Notes: generated by a model from the sequence alone, not told the origin. DNA of 44,807 nt from Candidatus Deferrimicrobiaceae bacterium (GCA_035256765.1 DATEXR010000102.1:1-44807), one strand, 5' to 3'; shown: positions 17,326 through 25,453, numbered from the stretch's first letter. Program-made: numbers and translations.

Positions 17326-18895
17326 CGGTTTCTCTCCCGGGAATGATCAGGATTAAAAAAGCTATTATAGTACATGAAATTGCGAATAGATCCCCCGTTT
17401 TCGCGTATGTCGTCTCTTCCCTTCGCGGGTGGATTTGCGCCACCAGCGTCCCTTTGCGGAAAAGCCCCAGCCGGGCCACCACCTCCCCCCTCTCGTCGAT
17501 CACCGCGCTTACGCCCGAGTTCGCGGCGCGCACCATCGGCCTTCGGAACTCGACCGTCCTCATCCTCGCCATGGCGAGGTGCTGATGGGGGGCGACCGTG
17601 TCCCCGAACCAGGCGTCGTTGGTGACGTTCACCAGCCACCGGGCGCCCTCCCGGACGCTATCCCGGATGATTTCCGGGAAGACCGCCTCGTAGCAGACGG
17701 AGGCCCCGACGGGTTCCCCCCGCACGGTGAACAAGGCCGGCCCGACCCCGGCGGAAAAATCCTCCTCCCCCGCCGTCAGTTTCCGGAGGAAGAAGAGAAG
17801 GCGCTTGAGAGGAATGTATTCCCCGAACGGAACGAGATGCCTCTTGTCGTACCGACCGTTGGCGATCCCTCTTTCATCAAGGTGGAACACGCTGTTGTAA
17901 TACTTTCCCCCCGCGGAGGGGTCGAACCAGGGAGCGCCGAAGATGATCGGTATCCGGTTCTCCATCGCCGCGGCATCCACCACTGCGCTCATCTCCGGTT
18001 CCCATCCGTAGAAAAACGGCGCGGCCGTCTCCGGCCAAACGACCACCTCGGCGCCCTTTTCCCTCGCCTCCTTTGTCAGGTCCCCGTATATTGCAAGCGT
18101 CTTCTTCTGGTGCGAGGGGGACCACTTGACCGACTGATCGATCCCCCCCTGTGCAATCCCGACCCGGACGGTCTCCCCGTTCGATTCCGCATCCTCCGGC
18201 CCCTTTCCCGAGGCGCCGTACGCGAAGAGAAACGCGGCGACCGCGGCCGCGCCGGCGAGATGCACGAGAACTCCCCTGCGTTTCCCGCGGGCAGCCTCCG
18301 CCCCTGCCCGGTACAGACATACGTTCGCCGTCGCCAGGAGGAATCCCAGTCCGTAGACGCCCGCCAGGTCGGCTGCCTGGCGGAGGAAGGAATGGCCGGA
18401 GAGACTGTACCCCAAAAGAAGCCAGGGGAACCCGGTGAACAGGACGGCCCTCAGGTACTCGACGCACACCCATGCCGCGGGAAACACCCATAGACCTGCG
18501 ATGCCGAAGCGTCTGCGAAGCCGGTGGGCAATCGCCGCGGCGACGGATACGTAGACCCCGAGATAGGCCGAGACCAGCAGGGCGGAAAGCGACCCCAGAG
18601 CCCATCCCAGATTCCCTTGCACGGCCACCGTGTAGGCGATCCAATACATGAGGAGCAGATTGCCGAGGGTGCCCGCGACAAACCCCCTGCGCGCGGCCTG
18701 GCGGGCGTTACCGGAGGAGGTGGACAGGATCAGGAGCGGCACGAGGCACGCAAACGGAAGCCCCGGAACGTCGTATCCGGGCATCCCCAGCGCGTACAGG
18801 GCGGCGAAGGCTGCGCAGAGTGCCGCCGTTCCGGAAAACGCGGCCACCGGAAAAGGGAAGTCGAACGCGTCGCCCCCGGAAAATTCGCCCTTCAA
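17285..18895 (-). CDS. lnt: Apolipoprotein N-acyltransferase (Lnt)
   Basis: Inner-membrane enzyme that adds the third acyl chain to lipoproteins, required for Lol export. The 536 residues comprise about six N-terminal membrane segments, then a periplasmic nitrilase domain. The triad is visible: glutamate in VVWPETAAP, lysine in YDKRHLVPFGEY and cysteine in GASVCYEAVFPE. A last membrane helix (AISCTIIAFLILIIPG) closes the protein. The start is TTG at 18895, overlapping the ybeY stop as TTGA, with GAGGGGAG about ten bases upstream. Its end runs 41 bases into prfB. Confidence 0.93.
   Translation of the reverse strand: MKGEFSGGDAFDFPFPVAAFSGTAALCAAFAALYALGMPGYDVPGLPFACLVPLLILSTSSGNARQAARRGFVAGTLGNLLLMYWIAYTVAVQGNLGWALGSLSALLVSAYLGVYVSVAAAIAHRLRRRFGIAGLWVFPAAWVCVEYLRAVLFTGFPWLLLGYSLSGHSFLRQAADLAGVYGLGFLLATANVCLYRAGAEAARGKRRGVLVHLAGAAAVAAFLFAYGASGKGPEDAESNGETVRVGIAQGGIDQSVKWSPSHQKKTLAIYGDLTKEAREKGAEVVVWPETAAPFFYGWEPEMSAVVDAAAMENRIPIIFGAPWFDPSAGGKYYNSVFHLDERGIANGRYDKRHLVPFGEYIPLKRLLFFLRKLTAGEEDFSAGVGPALFTVRGEPVGASVCYEAVFPEIIRDSVREGARWLVNVTNDAWFGDTVAPHQHLAMARMRTVEFRRPMVRAANSGVSAVIDERGEVVARLGLFRKGTLVAQIHPRREETTYAKTGDLFAISCTIIAFLILIIPGRETDGRRSPGRKDRRA
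17364..17369 (-). promoter_or_regulatory. Possible -10 element ahead of prfB
   Basis: The minus strand reads TATAAT, a perfect -10 hexamer, inside a short AT-rich patch within the last codons of lnt. It would start transcription near 17357, about 30 bases before the prfB ATG. No convincing -35 stands 16-18 bases upstream (GATCTA at 17 bases), and the AT-rich patch also encodes the last membrane helix of Lnt. It may therefore be a by-product of coding, or an internal promoter for prfB and the genes after it. Confidence 0.35.
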
Positions 18896-19365
18896 ATGGG
18901 GCTTCTCCCCTCTTTCAGGCAGGAGCGGTACACGCGGATTTCCTCCCTGCGCATCCTGGCCGCCTCGACCCTTCCCTTTTCGTGATCGTGCCCCAAAAGG
19001 TGCGCCACTCCGTGGACGATGAAGAAGAAGACCCTCTCCTCCTTCGAGCATGGCCAGTCGCTGGTCTGCGAGAGGCAGGCGGGCGCGGAAAGGAGGATGT
19101 CCCCCGCGACCCGGGAAGAAGGCCCTTGCCCGGCGTCTTCCTCGGGAAACGAGATTACGTTCGTCGTCCCCGGCCGTCCGAGGAATTCCCGGTTCCAACG
19201 CTCCATCTCCTCGTCCCCCACCACGAGGATCCTCAAGTTCGCCCCGGACAGATGCAGGAAACGGAGGGACCGCCGGACAAGGGCGCGGAGAACCTCGCCG
19301 CGAAAGGGGGCCGGCCGGATGTGCTGCCGGATGCTGATCCGGTACCTTTGCGCCCCCCGGCTCAC
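18892..19365 (-). CDS. ybeY: Endoribonuclease YbeY
   Basis: Metal-dependent RNase involved in 16S rRNA 3' maturation and ribosome quality control. The 157 residues include the family block RPGTTNVISFPEED and the zinc site HGVAHLLGHDHEKG, which gives the HxxxHxxxxxH pattern. The start is GTG at 19365, overlapping the stop of the HD-domain gene as GTGA with GGGAG four bases upstream. The run phoH - HD protein - ybeY is widely conserved and links RNA turnover with the downstream lnt gene, which starts inside the ybeY stop. Confidence 0.94.
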   Translation of the reverse strand: MSRGAQRYRISIRQHIRPAPFRGEVLRALVRRSLRFLHLSGANLRILVVGDEEMERWNREFLGRPGTTNVISFPEEDAGQGPSSRVAGDILLSAPACLSQTSDWPCSKEERVFFFIVHGVAHLLGHDHEKGRVEAARMRREEIRVYRSCLKEGRSPI

Positions 19366-20870
19366 GGTCTCCCGCTCGCGGGGGTTTTCGGATATTCGAC
19401 GCGGGTGTGGGAAACGGCGGAAAGGACCCTGCTGAAGGATGTTCCGACCGCATGGAGGTCGCGCAGCGTCATGTCGCACTCGTTGAGCTGTCCGTCGAGG
19501 TAGGCCCGGTTCACGATGCGGGTCACCGTCTCCTCGATCTCCTCGGGGGAAGGGTTCCGGAGGCTCCGGCTGGCGGCTTCGGCGGCATCCGCGAGCATGA
19601 TGATGGCGGCCTCGCGCGTTCTGGGCCGGGGACCCGGGTAGCGGAAACTCTCCTCGGACGCCTTCCGCTCCCGGATCATGGGCTGCGCCTTGTCCAGGAA
19701 AAAGTAGAGGAGACTGGTGCCGTGGTGCTGGGAGATGATCTCGGCGATTCGCTCCCCGAGCCGGTGCTCGTTGGCGAGGCGGACCCCCTCCTTTACGTGG
19801 TTGAGGATGACGAGCCGGCTCATTCCCGGGGTGAGAGTATCGTGAATATTCCCCGCGCCGACCTGGTTTTCGGAGAAATATTCGGGCTTCGCGATCTTCC
19901 CCACGTCGTGAAACAACGCCGCCACCCGGCACAGGAGGGGGTTGGCGCCGATCGCCTCGGCGCCCGCCTCGGCGAGGGTCCCCACCACGACGCTGTGGTG
20001 GAACGTCCCGGGAGCCTCGATCATGAGGCGCCGCAGGAGGGGATGCCCGGTGCTCCCCAGTTCCATGAGACGGATGTCGCTCGTGTATCCGAAGGCGTAT
20101 TCGGCCACCGGGAGGATGGCGAGGGCGATCGGGCCGGCGACCAGCCCGCTCACAACCCCGAAGATCCCCGCCCATACGATTCCGGATTCCCCGTAAAAGG
20201 CGAACTCGAGCGAGACGGCGGCAAGGGCGCACACGGCGGAAGTGAGGACCCCCGCCCAGAGCATCCGGTATCGGTCCGGAATCCGCCCCGACCGGGAGGC
20301 CCCCGCCGTCCCGGCGAGGAGCAGAAAGAGGAGGGTCGACCACCTCCCCTGGGCGGCGGCGGCGGAAAGCACGGAAGCGGCGACCGTGAACAGGATCGCC
20401 ACCTCCGAATTCAGGAGGACCCGGACCACCATGGCGAAGGCGGGCAACGGGATGAGGTAGACGTAGAGGTGCGACGGGAAGGCTCCTCCCCAGGCGGAAA
20501 AACCGGCGGGAAGAACATCCATCACCGTTTTCGCGAGGAAGAAAAGGGCCAGCGCCAGCGAGCAAAGGAAAAGGAAATCCCTCGCGGCCAGCCGAACCTT
20601 CCGGACCTCCCGCCCCGCGAACCCGAACCATTCCGTCAGAAAGAGGGCGACCGCCAGGGTCAGGGCCACCGCACCGACGAAGGGGAACATCTTCCCGTAC
20701 CGCCCGGCCGCGCGGGGAAGCAGCTCCTCCCCCCACAGGTAGAAGAGGACAACGAACACCGCCGCGGAGAACAGCCCCAACGCCCCCTCTTTCAGCGAGC
20801 GGTCCCTCCGCGTCCCCGGAGCGGGATCGGGGGGACGGTTACTCCGGGACCCTTTTTTCGTATCGTTCAT
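19362..20870 (-). CDS. PgpH-type membrane HD-domain phosphodiesterase lacking the extracytoplasmic sensor
   Basis: The 502-residue protein has several membrane helices between about residues 30 and 255 and a cytoplasmic HD domain (about 285-440). Metal ligands appear in TFHHSVVVG, ALFHDVGKIAKPEYF, ILNHVKEG and ISQHHGTSLLYFF. The arrangement matches the 7TMR-HD family, whose Listeria member PgpH hydrolyses c-di-AMP. Usual members are 700 residues or more, with a 7TMR-HDED domain between TM1 and TM2. Here only about 14 residues separate TM1 (30-46) and TM2 (61-83). The start is ATG at 20870, overlapping the end of phoH by 32 bases, with a weak AAGG upstream. Activity on c-di-AMP is inferred from the family only. 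Confidence 0.87.
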   Translation of the reverse strand: MNDTKKGSRSNRPPDPAPGTRRDRSLKEGALGLFSAAVFVVLFYLWGEELLPRAAGRYGKMFPFVGAVALTLAVALFLTEWFGFAGREVRKVRLAARDFLFLCSLALALFFLAKTVMDVLPAGFSAWGGAFPSHLYVYLIPLPAFAMVVRVLLNSEVAILFTVAASVLSAAAAQGRWSTLLFLLLAGTAGASRSGRIPDRYRMLWAGVLTSAVCALAAVSLEFAFYGESGIVWAGIFGVVSGLVAGPIALAILPVAEYAFGYTSDIRLMELGSTGHPLLRRLMIEAPGTFHHSVVVGTLAEAGAEAIGANPLLCRVAALFHDVGKIAKPEYFSENQVGAGNIHDTLTPGMSRLVILNHVKEGVRLANEHRLGERIAEIISQHHGTSLLYFFLDKAQPMIRERKASEESFRYPGPRPRTREAAIIMLADAAEAASRSLRNPSPEEIEETVTRIVNRAYLDGQLNECDMTLRDLHAVGTSFSRVLSAVSHTRVEYPKTPASGRP

Positions 20871-21816
20871 AGGCCTTGATGATCTCCTGCACGATCGGGT
20901 GCCTGACCACATCGATCTCGGTGAACCAGCAGAACCGGATCCCCTCCATTTCCTTGAGGATCGAGAGCGCCTCGTTCAACCCGGAGATGCGCCCCGACGG
21001 GAGGTCCGTCTGGGTGATGTCCCCCGTGATCACCGCCTTGGAGCCGAACCCGATCCGGGTCAGGAACATCTTCATCTGCTCGGACGTGGTGTTCTGCGCC
21101 TCGTCGAGGATCACGAAGGAGTCGTTGAGCGTCCTCCCCCGCATGAACGCCAGGGGGGCGACCTCGATGACGCCCCGCTCCATCATCTTGGCCGCCTGCT
21201 CGTATTCGAGCATCGTGTACAGGGCGTCGTGAAGCGGCCGGAGATAGGGATTGACCTTCTCCGCCATGTCCCCCGGGAGGAAGCCGAGTTTCTCCCCCGC
21301 CTCGACCGCCGGGCGGGCGAGGACGATCCGTTTGACCTCTTTTCGCAGGAGAAAACCGACCGCCATCGCCATGGCGAGAAAGGTCTTGCCCGTTCCGGCG
21401 GGCCCGATTCCGAAGACGATGTCGCAATCGCGCATGGCGTCGAGGTACTTCTTCTGCGCGACGCTCTTGGGCGTGATGATCTTGTTGCGGGAGGACTTGA
21501 ACACCACGTCCTCGAAAACGCTCGCCACCTCGGCGTGCCGGTCCGAACGGACGATCTTCACCGCGGCCACGACATCGTTGGACGTGATGGGAATCCCCTT
21601 GCGGAGGACGCGGTACAGGCCCGTGAGGACCTTCACGGAAATCTCCACCGAGAGCGGGTCGCCGGCCAGGGTCAGCACGTTCCCCTTCGGGAGGATCGTG
21701 ACACCGAGGAACTTTTCCACGATTTTCAGATGGTCGTCCTGGCTCCCGAACAGGTCCGCGAGGACCGCGGGGTCGTCGAAACGGACCGTCTCTTCCCTCC
21801 GCTTACCCGTCTCCAT
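20839..21816 (-). CDS. phoH: PhoH family ATPase
   Basis: Cytoplasmic P-loop ATPase, probably an RNA helicase-like partner of YbeY. The 325 residues contain an N-terminal segment of about 110 residues and then the ATPase core. Walker A is GIGPAGTGKTFLAMA at about 136-150, AGEKLGFLPGDMAEK lies in the middle, Walker B is FVILDEAQNTT, and VITGDITQTDLP follows. The start ATG at 21816 lies 19 bases after the DUF4388 gene, with a modest GGGAAG upstream. The open frame extends further upstream into DUF4388 coding but shows no homology there. It overlaps the next gene by 32 bases. Confidence 0.94.
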   Translation of the reverse strand: METGKRREETVRFDDPAVLADLFGSQDDHLKIVEKFLGVTILPKGNVLTLAGDPLSVEISVKVLTGLYRVLRKGIPITSNDVVAAVKIVRSDRHAEVASVFEDVVFKSSRNKIITPKSVAQKKYLDAMRDCDIVFGIGPAGTGKTFLAMAMAVGFLLRKEVKRIVLARPAVEAGEKLGFLPGDMAEKVNPYLRPLHDALYTMLEYEQAAKMMERGVIEVAPLAFMRGRTLNDSFVILDEAQNTTSEQMKMFLTRIGFGSKAVITGDITQTDLPSGRISGLNEALSILKEMEGIRFCWFTEIDVVRHPIVQEIIKAYERYEKRVPE

Positions 21817-21835: not shown

Positions 21836-22726
21836 TTAACGGTAGAACTCCGCCCAGCCTGCGAGGAGGTGCCTCGCCGGGGGGGACAAAAGGATCCTGT
21901 ACACCCAGAATCCCGCCACGATCGCCGCAAGCGACCATATCGCCGCCCGGACGCAGCCGATCGAGAATCTGCGCGCCATGTCCTCCCGGACGGCACGCCC
22001 CGTGTCCTGGGTCTCCGAGTCCACCGGGGAGATCTCCACCAGCCCCCGGTCCCAGAGCCCCCACAACGCCTTCAGCCCCTCGTGCCAGGTGAGGCAGGCT
22101 TTCCGGAACACCTGGTACGGGTCGGAGGAGAAATAGACCGCCCCCCAGACCTCCCTTTCCTGGGGGGGGAGAGCCATCGGATCGATCTTCACGCCCCACT
22201 TTCGGACGACCTTGAACCTTTCGGGTGGAAATTTCTCGCGAATCCAGGCATATTCATCCAGAAACTGCATCCCTTCCATGAGCAATCTATCCCCGTGGAT
22301 GGGAGTGGCCATCCAGGCGGGGGGTCGCACCGAAAAGACCTCGAACCGGTAATCTCCTTCCTTGATCCGCAGCGAGAAGTAGAGACTGTCCTTGACCTGC
22401 AGGTAGAGGTACTGGGCGAGCTTCTCCCGGGAGATCTTTCCCTTCTCCACCAGGATCTCCCCGATCTTTTTTTTCCCCTTCTCCTGGATGGAAAGAATCC
22501 GGCGGAGCTCCTCCGCGGTCAGGTACCCGGCGTCCACCAGCATGTTCCCGATCAGGGTGGATGGGGCCTTCTGCCGGTCGGGCTGGACGTCTACGATCAT
22601 TCCGTTCGAAAAAAGAAAGATCGTCTCCCTATCGTCCCCCCGGATCGTGAGGGCCCCGCTCTTTTGCTGGCTGGTCACCAGCTGGAAAATTTCCGGGATG
22701 CCGAAGTCGGCGATCTTTCCCTGCAC
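21836..22726 (-). CDS. DUF4388-domain protein with C-terminal membrane anchor
   Basis: The function is unknown. The 296-residue protein opens with a DUF4388 (PATAN-like) domain: MQGKIADFGIPEIFQLV, then QKSGALTIRGDDRETIFLFSNGMIVDVQ. This fold is frequent in Deltaproteobacteria, often beside signalling proteins. About residues 55-100 read as a helical segment (TLIGNMLVDAGYLT, KIGEILVEKGKIS) like that found in type IV pilus or secretion ATPase N-termini. A single hydrophobic helix lies at about 257-280, so it is probably anchored in the inner membrane with most of the protein in the cytoplasm. The start is GTG at 22726 behind GAGGGTAAGG, three bases after the upstream gene. It heads the operon together with that gene, ahead of phoH. 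Confidence 0.8.
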   Translation of the reverse strand: MQGKIADFGIPEIFQLVTSQQKSGALTIRGDDRETIFLFSNGMIVDVQPDRQKAPSTLIGNMLVDAGYLTAEELRRILSIQEKGKKKIGEILVEKGKISREKLAQYLYLQVKDSLYFSLRIKEGDYRFEVFSVRPPAWMATPIHGDRLLMEGMQFLDEYAWIREKFPPERFKVVRKWGVKIDPMALPPQEREVWGAVYFSSDPYQVFRKACLTWHEGLKALWGLWDRGLVEISPVDSETQDTGRAVREDMARRFSIGCVRAAIWSLAAIVAGFWVYRILLSPPARHLLAGWAEFYR

Positions 22727-22729
22727 GCC

Positions 22730-24646
22730 TTACCCTCTTTTTCCGCTGATCTTCAGTGTTTGCTGCATCCTTCCGAACGACCGGATCCCCCATGCCGCCC
22801 CGACGATCCACAGGACCCCCGTGACGAGGAAGGCCCACCGGGCGACGATCGACTCGAGATCGGAGAGGATGTCCCCTGTCCCCCGGGCGCCGATGGACAC
22901 CGATACCGCTGCCAGGGACAGGCATAGAAGCACGACGTACAGCATCGTCCACCCCTCCTTCCCGGACCACAATCCCCCGGAGCCGGGCACCACGACCGAA
23001 CCCGCCCTGACGGTGTTCCGATGCATCCGGATCCCCTGGATTCTCCGTTCCTTCTCCTCCCCCTCCCGGATCCCCCACCCGACCTGCATCCGGCACATGT
23101 TGCAGAAATCGGAGGCTTCCCGGATCCCCACGATGAGGGTTCGGGTGCCGCAACCCCGGCAGGCGGTATGGACCCACACCCGGAGGGAAAAAAACTTCCA
23201 GATCACCGAGGTAAGCCAGACGGCGAAGAGAAAGAGGAGAGCGACGCCGGGCGAAAGCGGGCGGAAGAACATCCGGTAAACCTCCCCCTCGCCCGCCTCC
23301 CGATAGAGATCATGCCCCCGTTGCAAGGTCGCCCAGACAAGCTCGTCCACGGGAAGGGGGGAGCCCACCCATTCCCCGGCCTCCATGTCGGAGGGTCGGA
23401 AACGGAAGGGAGAGAGCTTCTGCACCCGGTCCCATGCCAGCGGCTGGATCATCCGCGCGCGCTCAAAATTGAACAGCTGGAGGTACCCCTGATAGACGTT
23501 CCACAGGGCCGCTCCCTCTCCGGGCCGCTTCACGAACGCGGCCTCGAAGTCGGAAAGGGCCGCCCTCATCCTTCCCTGTTTCGCCCTGGTGATCCCCCTG
23601 TTGTTTCTCGCCTCGGGAAGATCCTGTCCCGCCTCGATGAGTTCCGTCCAGAGCCGCTCCGCGCCCGCGTGATCTCCCGCCTGCATCTTCGCGCGCGCCC
23701 GGGAAAACAGGACCAGCCAGGAGGGCGCCGCCCCGTTCCCCTGCGCTACCCCTTCCCCGGATTCCGAAGGCCACGTGCGGGAGATCGATCCGTCGACCCC
23801 TAAATACCCTTCCCCCGGCGCATCGCCCGCCACCCTGCTTGCGAGATGCAGCATGCTTCCCCCGAAGAAAATCCCCACGATGAGGAGGATCGCGATCGCC
23901 ATCAGCATCAGTTCCCCCCGGCGAAGATACGCAACCGAAAGCACCATCCAGTAGCACGCCACGACCGCGAGCCCGAACCCTGCGAACAGGGGCAGAAGAA
24001 AAAGAACGGCGACCGCCAGGGGGGACAGGTAGTCCCGATAGGGAAGCCGCAAGACCCTCGGGATGTCCAATTCCAGGGAGGGACGCGCCCGGAGGAAGAG
24101 GGCGATCGAGGTCCACACCACGAACCAGCATGCGGCCGCCAATGCAAAGGAGACGAGCCAGACGGCATACCCCAGCCGGGCCGGGCCGAACCGCCGAACC
24201 GCCCCCGACAAATCCGCGAGGTCGGGGAAGAGGTCCGAAAACCGCAGGCCGCGAATATCCTCCATGACCATCCAGGCCCACATCGTGGCCGAAAGAGGGG
24301 AAATCTCCGCGATGAGCCGGAATGCGGGTCCCAGCCCGTTCTTCCATCCTTCCCGGTCCGCCCGGCGGAAGACGAGTTCCGGGATGGCGTTGACGGACAG
24401 GATGCCATGGGAGTACATTTTCTTCCGGAGCCCCCGGACCTCGATTGCCAGCTCCTCCTCCTTGCCCGGGCCCGCTGCCTCCACCACGCGAAGGGCCTGC
24501 GCCCGCACCTCGGGGGCGTACCCGGGAAAAAGATCGTCCGCCCCGCTACGCACCGGAAACCCCAGGAGGAAGACGAGGAAAAAGAAAAGGATCATCGCAG
24601 GAGAGGACCGGACACGGCCGCTGGGAACCTCGATCATCATAAACAT
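22730..24646 (-). CDS. Predicted membrane protein with TPR-like segment and zinc ribbon
   Basis: I do not recognise a named family. The 638 residues have a signal-anchor at about 17-35, helices near 158-186, 207-235 and 243-262, and then a soluble stretch. That stretch includes a TPR-like pair (AGDHAGAERLWTELIEAG, ARNNRGITRAKQGRMRAALSDFEAAF; about 318-372). Another helix lies at 466-485. A CxxC-x15-CxxC zinc ribbon (C496, C499, C515, C518) follows, and two C-terminal helices lie at 567-585 and 603-621. It is the first gene of the long minus-strand cluster. Its ATG at 24646 lies only 33 bases from the mazG start on the other strand. ATG codons three and four residues in are alternative starts. 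Three bases separate it from the DUF4388 gene, so the two proteins are probably made together. Confidence 0.75.
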   Translation of the reverse strand: MFMMIEVPSGRVRSSPAMILFFFLVFLLGFPVRSGADDLFPGYAPEVRAQALRVVEAAGPGKEEELAIEVRGLRKKMYSHGILSVNAIPELVFRRADREGWKNGLGPAFRLIAEISPLSATMWAWMVMEDIRGLRFSDLFPDLADLSGAVRRFGPARLGYAVWLVSFALAAACWFVVWTSIALFLRARPSLELDIPRVLRLPYRDYLSPLAVAVLFLLPLFAGFGLAVVACYWMVLSVAYLRRGELMLMAIAILLIVGIFFGGSMLHLASRVAGDAPGEGYLGVDGSISRTWPSESGEGVAQGNGAAPSWLVLFSRARAKMQAGDHAGAERLWTELIEAGQDLPEARNNRGITRAKQGRMRAALSDFEAAFVKRPGEGAALWNVYQGYLQLFNFERARMIQPLAWDRVQKLSPFRFRPSDMEAGEWVGSPLPVDELVWATLQRGHDLYREAGEGEVYRMFFRPLSPGVALLFLFAVWLTSVIWKFFSLRVWVHTACRGCGTRTLIVGIREASDFCNMCRMQVGWGIREGEEKERRIQGIRMHRNTVRAGSVVVPGSGGLWSGKEGWTMLYVVLLCLSLAAVSVSIGARGTGDILSDLESIVARWAFLVTGVLWIVGAAWGIRSFGRMQQTLKISGKRG

Positions 24647-24679: not shown

Positions 24680-25453
24680 ATGGGCAATTTCTCGTCCCTT
24701 GTGCAGATCATGGCGCGGCTTCGGGGGGAAGGCGGCTGCGAATGGGATCGGGCCCAGACGCAAGCCACCCTTCGCCCGTACCTCCTCGAGGAGGCTCACG
24801 AGGTCGTGGACGCCATCTCCCGGAAGGACCCGGCGCTTCTGTGCGAGGAACTGGGGGACCTCCTCCTTCAGATCCTCTTCCACGCCCAGATCGCCAGCGA
24901 GAAGGGGGAGTTCACCATCGCCGACGTGATCGAATCGATCTCGCAGAAGATGGTGCGGAGGCACCCGCACGTCTTCTCCGATGCCAGTGCGGCAACACCG
25001 GAAGCGGTTTCCCTTCAGTGGGAACATATCAAGAAAACAAAGGAAAACCGGAATCATGCCTCCCGCATCGGGGGCGTCCCCGAGAGTTTCCCCTCCCTTC
25101 TCCGGGCAGCCAAGATCACGAAAAAGGCGGCTCGAGCTGGATTCGACTGGGAAAACACCGGCCAGGTCGAAAAAAAGGTCGGGGAGGAGATCGAGGAGCT
25201 CAAAGAAGCGATTGCCGCGGGAGACCCCGAGGAGATGGAGCACGAGTTGGGGGACACGTTCTTCGCGCTGGTCAACCTTGCCCGGTTCCTCAATGTCAAC
25301 CCGGAGGTCGCCATGGCCGCGGCCAACAAGCGGTTCGAGCGCCGGTTCGAAGCGATGGAAAAAATCGCCGAGGAATCAGGCCGTTCCATCGAGCAGACGG
25401 ATCCGTCCACGCTCGACCTGTTTTGGGAAAAAGCGAAAAAGATGACGAAGTGA
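24680..25453 (+). CDS. mazG: Nucleoside triphosphate pyrophosphohydrolase MazG
   Basis: All-alpha NTP pyrophosphatase that clears NTPs or abnormal nucleotides, releasing pyrophosphate; cytoplasmic. The 257 residues hold two MazG repeats. The first has CEWDRAQTQATLRPYLLEEAHEVVDAI and EELGDLLLQILFHAQI, the second EEIEELKEAI and HELGDTFFALVNLARFL; the EExxE and ExxD metal ligands are all present. Of two in-frame ATGs (24650, 24680), the second is chosen because AAAGGA lies nine bases before it. The gene is divergent from the long minus-strand cluster and precedes rpsT, which has its own promoter. Confidence 0.94.
   Translation: MGNFSSLVQIMARLRGEGGCEWDRAQTQATLRPYLLEEAHEVVDAISRKDPALLCEELGDLLLQILFHAQIASEKGEFTIADVIESISQKMVRRHPHVFSDASAATPEAVSLQWEHIKKTKENRNHASRIGGVPESFPSLLRAAKITKKAARAGFDWENTGQVEKKVGEEIEELKEAIAAGDPEEMEHELGDTFFALVNLARFLNVNPEVAMAAANKRFERRFEAMEKIAEESGRSIEQTDPSTLDLFWEKAKKMTK

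Follow-up and report, generated by a model that had tools for sequence, protein, structure and literature searches.

A DUF4388 protein with a nested MshEN module and its seven-helix partner form a candidate membrane relay for cyclic di-GMP

Receptors of cyclic di-GMP (c-di-GMP) of the MshEN type (MshE, PilB, PilF GSPII-B, and NfrB) share a 53-residue four-helix module with two 24-residue motifs, a 5-residue spacer, and conserved Gly, Leu, and Gln residues, and they have so far been found mostly in motor ATPases and glycosyltransferases. PatA, PixE, PixG, and LsiR share a different domain, DUF4388, presumably identical to the PATAN domain of InterPro. PATAN is reported to carry an alpha-helical insertion (Makarova 2006). 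Here, we describe a pair of adjacent genes at positions 21836 to 24646 of a 44,807-nucleotide stretch of DNA from a Candidatus Deferrimicrobiaceae bacterium (GCA_035256765.1 DATEXR010000102.1:1-44807; hereafter, the window), encoding a DUF4388 protein and a large partner with seven transmembrane (TM) helices. The DUF4388 protein has a module like that of the MshEN receptors; in contrast to theirs, however, this module is nested in DUF4388, is accompanied by no ATPase or glycosyltransferase, and belongs to a protein with a C-terminal membrane anchor and a separate seven-TM partner. Unlike PatA, PixE, PixG, and LsiR, the protein has no receiver domain and is membrane anchored, and its insertion is a recognizable c-di-GMP module. 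With a probability of roughly 0.62, we read the pair as one membrane complex that senses c-di-GMP, with the DUF4388 protein as a membrane-bound receptor and the large protein as a polytopic effector.

Both open reading frames (ORFs) were recovered on the minus strand with exactly the boundaries given in the original prediction, made from the sequence alone, with a gap of 3 bases between them and heading a run of further genes. A frame or gene-call artefact was ruled out, as both ORFs are conserved end to end across the family, with 40 to 74% identity. The two genes and the parts of the DUF4388 protein are as follows, in window positions:

22730..24646, minus strand: large partner gene, 638-amino-acid ORF
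21836..22726, minus strand: DUF4388 protein gene, 296-amino-acid ORF with a GTG start
22556..22723, minus strand: DUF4388, first part (residues 2-57), from Pfam
22397..22555, minus strand: MshEN c-di-GMP module (residues 58-110), nested in DUF4388, from NF053729, a profile match to PDB entries, and Foldseek
22484..22555, minus strand: c-di-GMP motif 1 (residues 58-81), LIGNMLVDAGYLTAEELRRILSIQ, 9/11 key positions
22397..22468, minus strand: c-di-GMP motif 2 (residues 87-110), KIGEILVEKGKISREKLAQYLYLQ, 9/11 key positions
22253..22396, minus strand: DUF4388, second part (residues 111-158), from Pfam
22025..22216, minus strand: winged-helix-like domain (residues 171-234), from the AlphaFold2 (AF2) model and Foldseek
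21899..21967, minus strand: C-terminal TM helix (residues 254-276), from hydropathy and AF2

The assignment to DUF4388 was certain (Pfam PF14332, 89 bits against a cut-off of 25, residues 2 to 158), and the domain was matched in 50/50 relatives. The single C-terminal helix originally predicted for this protein was also found, at about residues 254 to 276. The DUF4388 match exceeds the 122 positions of the Pfam model because an MshEN module is inserted in it, a feature that the original prediction had missed and from which the link to c-di-GMP comes. NCBIfam NF053729 (MshE-related c-di-GMP motif) scored 51.3 bits against a cut-off of 38 at residues 59 to 108, and it was matched in 48 of the 50 relatives (E ≤ 0.001). 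The two other DUF4388 proteins of the same genome are without the insert, their sequence being continuous at that point (...SHCETGNLNGEEAFYRLL... and ...SARAQNTLGEKALYRLI...). A profile made from the 50 relatives matched solved c-di-GMP domains at residues 53 to 110, namely, those of MshE (2.1e-11), PilF (5.5e-25), and also PilB. In the AF2 model (predicted local distance difference test score [pLDDT] of 85.4), the module consists of four helices (58-65, 71-83, 88-94, and 100-119), and Foldseek overlaid it on MshE with c-di-GMP (5htl) with a root mean square deviation of 1.5 Å over 55 columns (probability 0.91, E only 1.2). Foldseek E-values are weak here because the module is small, and the sequence match is therefore stronger evidence than the structure match. 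For the winged-helix-like domain, the top Foldseek match was the winged helix 2yu3, with a probability of 0.96 yet an E-value of 0.29. As far as sequence can tell, the identity of the DUF4388 protein as a c-di-GMP receptor is well supported.

A degenerate two-motif helical insert was seen at the same place in a cyanobacterial DUF4388 protein (locus L180:6001-6939), hinting that the helical insertion of PATAN is derived from MshEN. In its wider form, this hint would make the alpha-helical insertion of PATAN domains generally an MshEN module, sometimes a degenerate one.

The published MshEN consensus (PMC5013675), in which 5 residues separate two 24-residue motifs, has been extended at its first position to (R/K/L)LG..., since PilF GSPII-B, with Lys and Leu in place of Arg, binds c-di-GMP with a dissociation constant of 6 nM; binding by its K167L variant is, according to the same study, not weaker and perhaps stronger (PMC11731258). 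We scored the motifs against the extended form, (R/K/L)LGxx(LVI)(LVI)xxG(LVI)(LVI)xxxxLxxxLxxQ, with 11 key positions. Shuffled motif-1 sequences matched on average 2.6 of these, compared with 9 for the real one. The window motifs begin with Leu (motif 1) and Lys (motif 2), are separated by a spacer of 5 residues, as in 69/71 sequences, and depart from the consensus at position 2, where Ile replaces Leu, and at position 11, which is Tyr or Lys. Across the 71 sequences, mean entropy was 1.38 bits at the key positions and 2.39 bits at the others, and the two ligand-contacting Gln residues were conserved in 59 and 64 sequences, respectively.

The same residues bear on a different explanation, that the module is a fold retained without its ligand and the pair a structural inner-membrane scaffold. 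Some MshEN domains, such as those of XpsE and PilF GSPII-A, do not bind (PMC11731258, PMC5013675). In addition, the first Arg of motif 1 has been lost in most members of the family (Leu in 44/71 and Met in 9/71), motif 2 starts with Tyr in 16/71, and position 11 of the window motifs is Tyr and Lys, not Leu, Val, or Ile; all of this weighs against a c-di-GMP receptor. However, the losses found in XpsE (G11, L29, G40, L54, L58, and Q61) were not seen in the window copy, which shares with XpsE only the loss of the first Arg, and Leu or Lys at position 1 sustains nanomolar binding in PilF GSPII-B. Conservation of the key positions well above the rest also argues against a ligand-free scaffold, which we consider unlikely. 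As for the ligand itself, the genome holds 10 GGDEF matches, several of them with an intact GG(D/E)EF active-site motif, and c-di-GMP is therefore probably made there.

Starting from the DUF4388 protein, the large gene was found immediately upstream in 68/70 loci from named genomes, the two exceptions being a contig edge (L131) and the cyanobacterial locus L180. This search was built on the DUF4388 alignment, and its pattern selects this DUF4388 subfamily, not the neighbour gene; the large family, aligned as a mixed set, offered no segment with sufficient conservation for scanning. Independently, starting from the large protein, the DUF4388 gene lay immediately downstream in 19 of 20 genomes from many families, the 20th being a contig edge. 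Lack of co-occurrence, one of the two outcomes named beforehand as refuting the original prediction, was thus clearly not seen. The large protein was found at 130 bits or more in about 110 of the 395 sampled genomes of the phylum (counted by eye), and hosts of the pair included Deltaproteobacteria of several kinds, Syntrophaceae, Myxococcales/Myxococcota, one Nitrospirae genome, and one Holophagales genome. The pair is an ancient, near-obligate unit, and its two genes are almost inseparable.

The large partner is predicted to have a signal peptide, a periplasmic helical domain, seven TM helices, a periplasmic TPR region, a cytoplasmic zinc ribbon, and a PGxG motif before TM helix 6, at the following positions:

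24536..24646, minus strand: signal peptide or N-terminal anchor (residues 1-37), from hydropathy
24188..24535, minus strand: helical domain (residues 38-153), predicted periplasmic, its counterpart in distant relatives being TPR-like, AF2 helices at 45-152
23837..24175, minus strand: TM helices 1-4 (residues 158-270), from hydropathy and AF2
23420..23722, minus strand: predicted periplasmic TPR region (residues 309-409), from Pfam TPR and AF2 helices
23180..23251, minus strand: TM helix 5 (residues 466-489), from hydropathy and AF2
23093..23161, minus strand: zinc ribbon CxxC-x15-CxxC (residues 496-518), predicted cytoplasmic, four invariant cysteines
22775..22990, minus strand: PGxG motif and TM helices 6-7 (residues 553-624), invariant G555, from AF2

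The seven helices and the zinc-ribbon motif had been foreseen and were confirmed, the CxxC...CxxC motif being invariant in 52 sequences. For the TPR-like segment the outcome was mixed: TPR_16 reached 21.5 bits in the window copy, under the Pfam cut-off of 32.7, with helical pairs at 309-409 in the AF2 model, and TPR_2 was matched in 48 of the 52 relatives with scores far over the cut-off. Across the 52 sequences, with identity down to 13%, C496, C499, G500, C515, C518, and G555 were invariant. According to the positive-inside rule, the TPR region would lie outside, in the periplasm, and the ribbon inside, in the cytoplasm. That this protein belongs to no recognized family, as first suspected, agrees with the Pfam and NCBIfam scan, in which no model besides TPR fitted. 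Its AF2 model was confident (pLDDT 87.2, predicted template modelling score 0.87), and a Foldseek search of it against the PDB gave TPR-like partial matches only (best E 1.1e-3) and revealed no membrane protein of solved structure as a homologue. The structure work was done without two loci of a second family, L067 and L069, whose large gene is broken or N-masked. At L067:5888-7712 (genome G024), a stretch of N and frame breaks disrupt the gene, probably reflecting an assembly gap.

In the mechanism we propose, GGDEF enzymes would make the c-di-GMP that serves as ligand for the MshEN module, and the DUF4388 protein would be a cytoplasmic receptor held by its single C-terminal membrane anchor. 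c-di-GMP would dock on the four-helix module interrupting the DUF4388 (PATAN-like) fold, and the ligand-induced change would reach the obligate partner, which the receptor would touch directly, by way of this fold and then the winged-helix-like domain. The partner is predicted to cross the inner membrane seven times; its conserved cytoplasmic zinc ribbon would be the likely docking side, and output would probably lie with its periplasmic TPR domains, which could recruit, release, or hold envelope or surface machinery. The pair would probably act as a switch passing the c-di-GMP signal to the cell envelope. LapD-type receptors work inside-out, turning a cytoplasmic c-di-GMP state into a periplasmic output across the membrane. 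The signal flow proposed for the pair, from cytoplasm to periplasm, is similar; however, the pair consists of two proteins instead of one, lacks EAL, HAMP, and PAS-like domains, and is not homologous to LapD. A stronger version can be put forward tentatively, at somewhat less than even odds: that this is an undescribed two-protein transmembrane c-di-GMP relay, in which a pocket nested in a PATAN-like domain controls a seven-TM/TPR/zinc-ribbon protein and this protein displays the signal on the periplasmic side, spread over at least the Deltaproteobacteria-type phyla, Myxococcota, Nitrospirae, and Acidobacteria.

Neither a combination of DUF4388 with MshEN nor a name for the large family was found in the open-access literature, and the supplementary MshEN-fusion tables of Wang 2016 may list a DUF4388 fusion. 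MshEN fusions as such are already known, in many sorts (PMC5013675), M. xanthus alone having 22 MshEN genes. The part that appears to be new is a nested, membrane-anchored putative c-di-GMP receptor with an obligate, uncharacterized seven-TM partner.

The genomic surroundings of the pair were compared across 104 loci, some of them near duplicates. A sensor-like character had been predicted, and the MshEN module agrees with it; the prediction had also tied the pair to envelope assembly or RNA turnover and had named co-conservation with phoH, ybeY, and lnt as a check. Under the corresponding explanation, the two proteins would work for the genes that follow theirs and would link a membrane signal to RNA turnover (phoH, ybeY) or to the assembly of lipoproteins and the outer membrane (lnt, lol, bam). 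Downstream phoH was indeed the commonest neighbour (about 43/104 loci), often together with 7TMR-HD and ybeY, and on a tree of 87 pairs it is scattered over several deep branches; this midpoint-rooted tree tentatively suggests that the phoH setting may be ancestral. However, 61/104 loci had no detected phoH adjoining the pair (some ending at a contig end), and two clades as well as mglA-linked lineages keep the pair without it. The first clade has the pair between or beside guaB and guaA (23/104 loci), and in the second the large gene directly follows a DUF1844 gene (11/104; for example, L152:3760-4086, L157:3568-3894, and L073:6483-6857). The mglA setting occupied a few neighbouring branches. 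The tree showed 12 context changes, compared with 45 in shuffles. A strict tie to phoH, ybeY, and lnt was thereby rejected, and unrelated contexts, the second outcome named beforehand, were found in part. Since the contexts vary across clades, the two genes move as an independent module, and their link to RNA turnover or envelope assembly is a habit of some lineages, not a rule. A role of the pair in serving its downstream genes is improbable in our view.

In a Syntrophaceae-type clade, guaB and guaA directly enclose the pair (L160:2451-8719 and some 20 further loci); any connection with the supply of guanine nucleotides would be no better than a guess.

An mglA gene lay upstream of the pair in 12/104 loci, nearly always together with a TPR gene of partial similarity to SgmX. 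The order in these clusters is a soluble TPR protein, an MglA-type GTPase (290-360 amino acids), and then the pair (L071:5205-7426, L079:6170-8066, L194, L197-L201, L203, L208, and L210-L212); no TPR gene was detected in L212, and L194 ends after the large gene. The arrangement resembles the MglA-SgmX polarity module, in which a TPR scaffold and a GTPase control surface machinery. SgmX, however, is cytoplasmic and 1,060 amino acids long (PMC7519303), and the name was rejected for the neighbour TPR gene, which scored 65.2 bits against an NCBIfam equivalog cut-off of 1800.

These loci bear on a further explanation, which overlaps with the c-di-GMP complex and fixes its output: the pair would be an accessory of type IV pili or of type II secretion and would act with MglA. 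An MshEN module is present in PilB/GspE as well, a TPR scaffold would fit, cyanobacterial PATAN proteins bind PilB1 (PMC7690835, PMC9090330), and PATAN proteins have been noted near some mglA genes (PMC4316618). Furthermore, many distant relatives of the DUF4388 protein have a periplasmic tail after the TM helix, matching the domain of the type II secretion pseudopilin GspG (T2SSG) in 10/50, in one case above the cut-off (27.9 bits). Against this stand the many loci without mglA, forming the majority, the adjoining identified genes, which are not pilus genes, and the window genome, in which the MglA query used had no match. The window DUF4388 protein also gave no T2SSG match, the tail having been lost or never present in it and its family, and in the relatives the domain trails a cytoplasmic receptor instead of following a prepilin leader as in GspG. 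We hold a pilus or secretion accessory to be less likely than not. For the c-di-GMP complex, control of type IV pili, polarity, or export is the leading candidate output, given the loci with mglA, the pilin-like tails, and the PATAN-PilB1 contact in cyanobacteria, and where the pair adjoins mglA, such machinery would be the most plausible target.

The pseudopilin-like tail forms the C-terminal 90 amino acids of the DUF4388 protein in L127, L138, L076, and others. The window protein itself was rejected as a pseudopilin, as it lacks this tail.

Several further observations bear on a c-di-GMP relay as we propose it and on its output. In its favour, at L157, a locus that also has DUF1844, the gene of a GAF-GGDEF diguanylate cyclase (L157:7245-8294) lies on the same strand 51 nucleotides downstream of the pair; that a cyclase neighbour was found in 1/104 loci only counts against it. 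Pairwise distances of the two proteins correlated at 0.93, which speaks for a co-inherited unit, but shared vertical inheritance alone would also give this value. The neighbourhoods are variable and do not fix the controlled process, and since the MglA query had no match in the window genome, the output may differ there.

In the window, the pair is flanked by the following genes:

20839..21816, minus strand: phoH, the next gene after the pair, starting 19 bases past the DUF4388 gene stop (Pfam PhoH, 319 bits)
19362..20912, minus strand: 7TMR-HD (PgpH-type) gene, often downstream of the pair elsewhere (Pfam 7TM-7TMR_HD and HD)
18892..19371, minus strand: ybeY (Pfam YbeY, 77.9 bits)
24680..25453, plus strand: mazG, a divergent neighbour starting 33 bases from the large partner gene and also kept at many phoH-type loci (Pfam MazG, 133 bits)

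By Pfam, the downstream run consists of phoH, 7TMR-HD, ybeY, lnt, prfB, lysS, a Lol-like pair of an FtsX-type permease and an ABC ATPase, bamA, ompH, lpxD, fabZ, lpxA, a MocA-type oxidoreductase, lpxB, an ABC exporter, a kdo transferase, and a lipid A acyltransferase. The predicted succession of PhoH, YbeY, Lnt, Lol, Bam, and Lpx genes was thus found; its description as an envelope operon needs correction, since the run holds prfB and lysS and is therefore not purely of that kind. A scan of the pair for promoters and terminators gave nothing clearly above chance. Proteins of the PgpH-type 7TMR-HD family hydrolyze c-di-AMP, and with such a gene in the same operon as the pair, two cyclic dinucleotides may meet there.

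If our reading is correct, many environmental lineages, Myxococcota included, would have a further c-di-GMP output, and a role would be suggested for the unexplained helical insertion of PATAN-type domains. It also proposes a concrete role for two widespread proteins that are labelled only DUF4388 and TPR in the family libraries.

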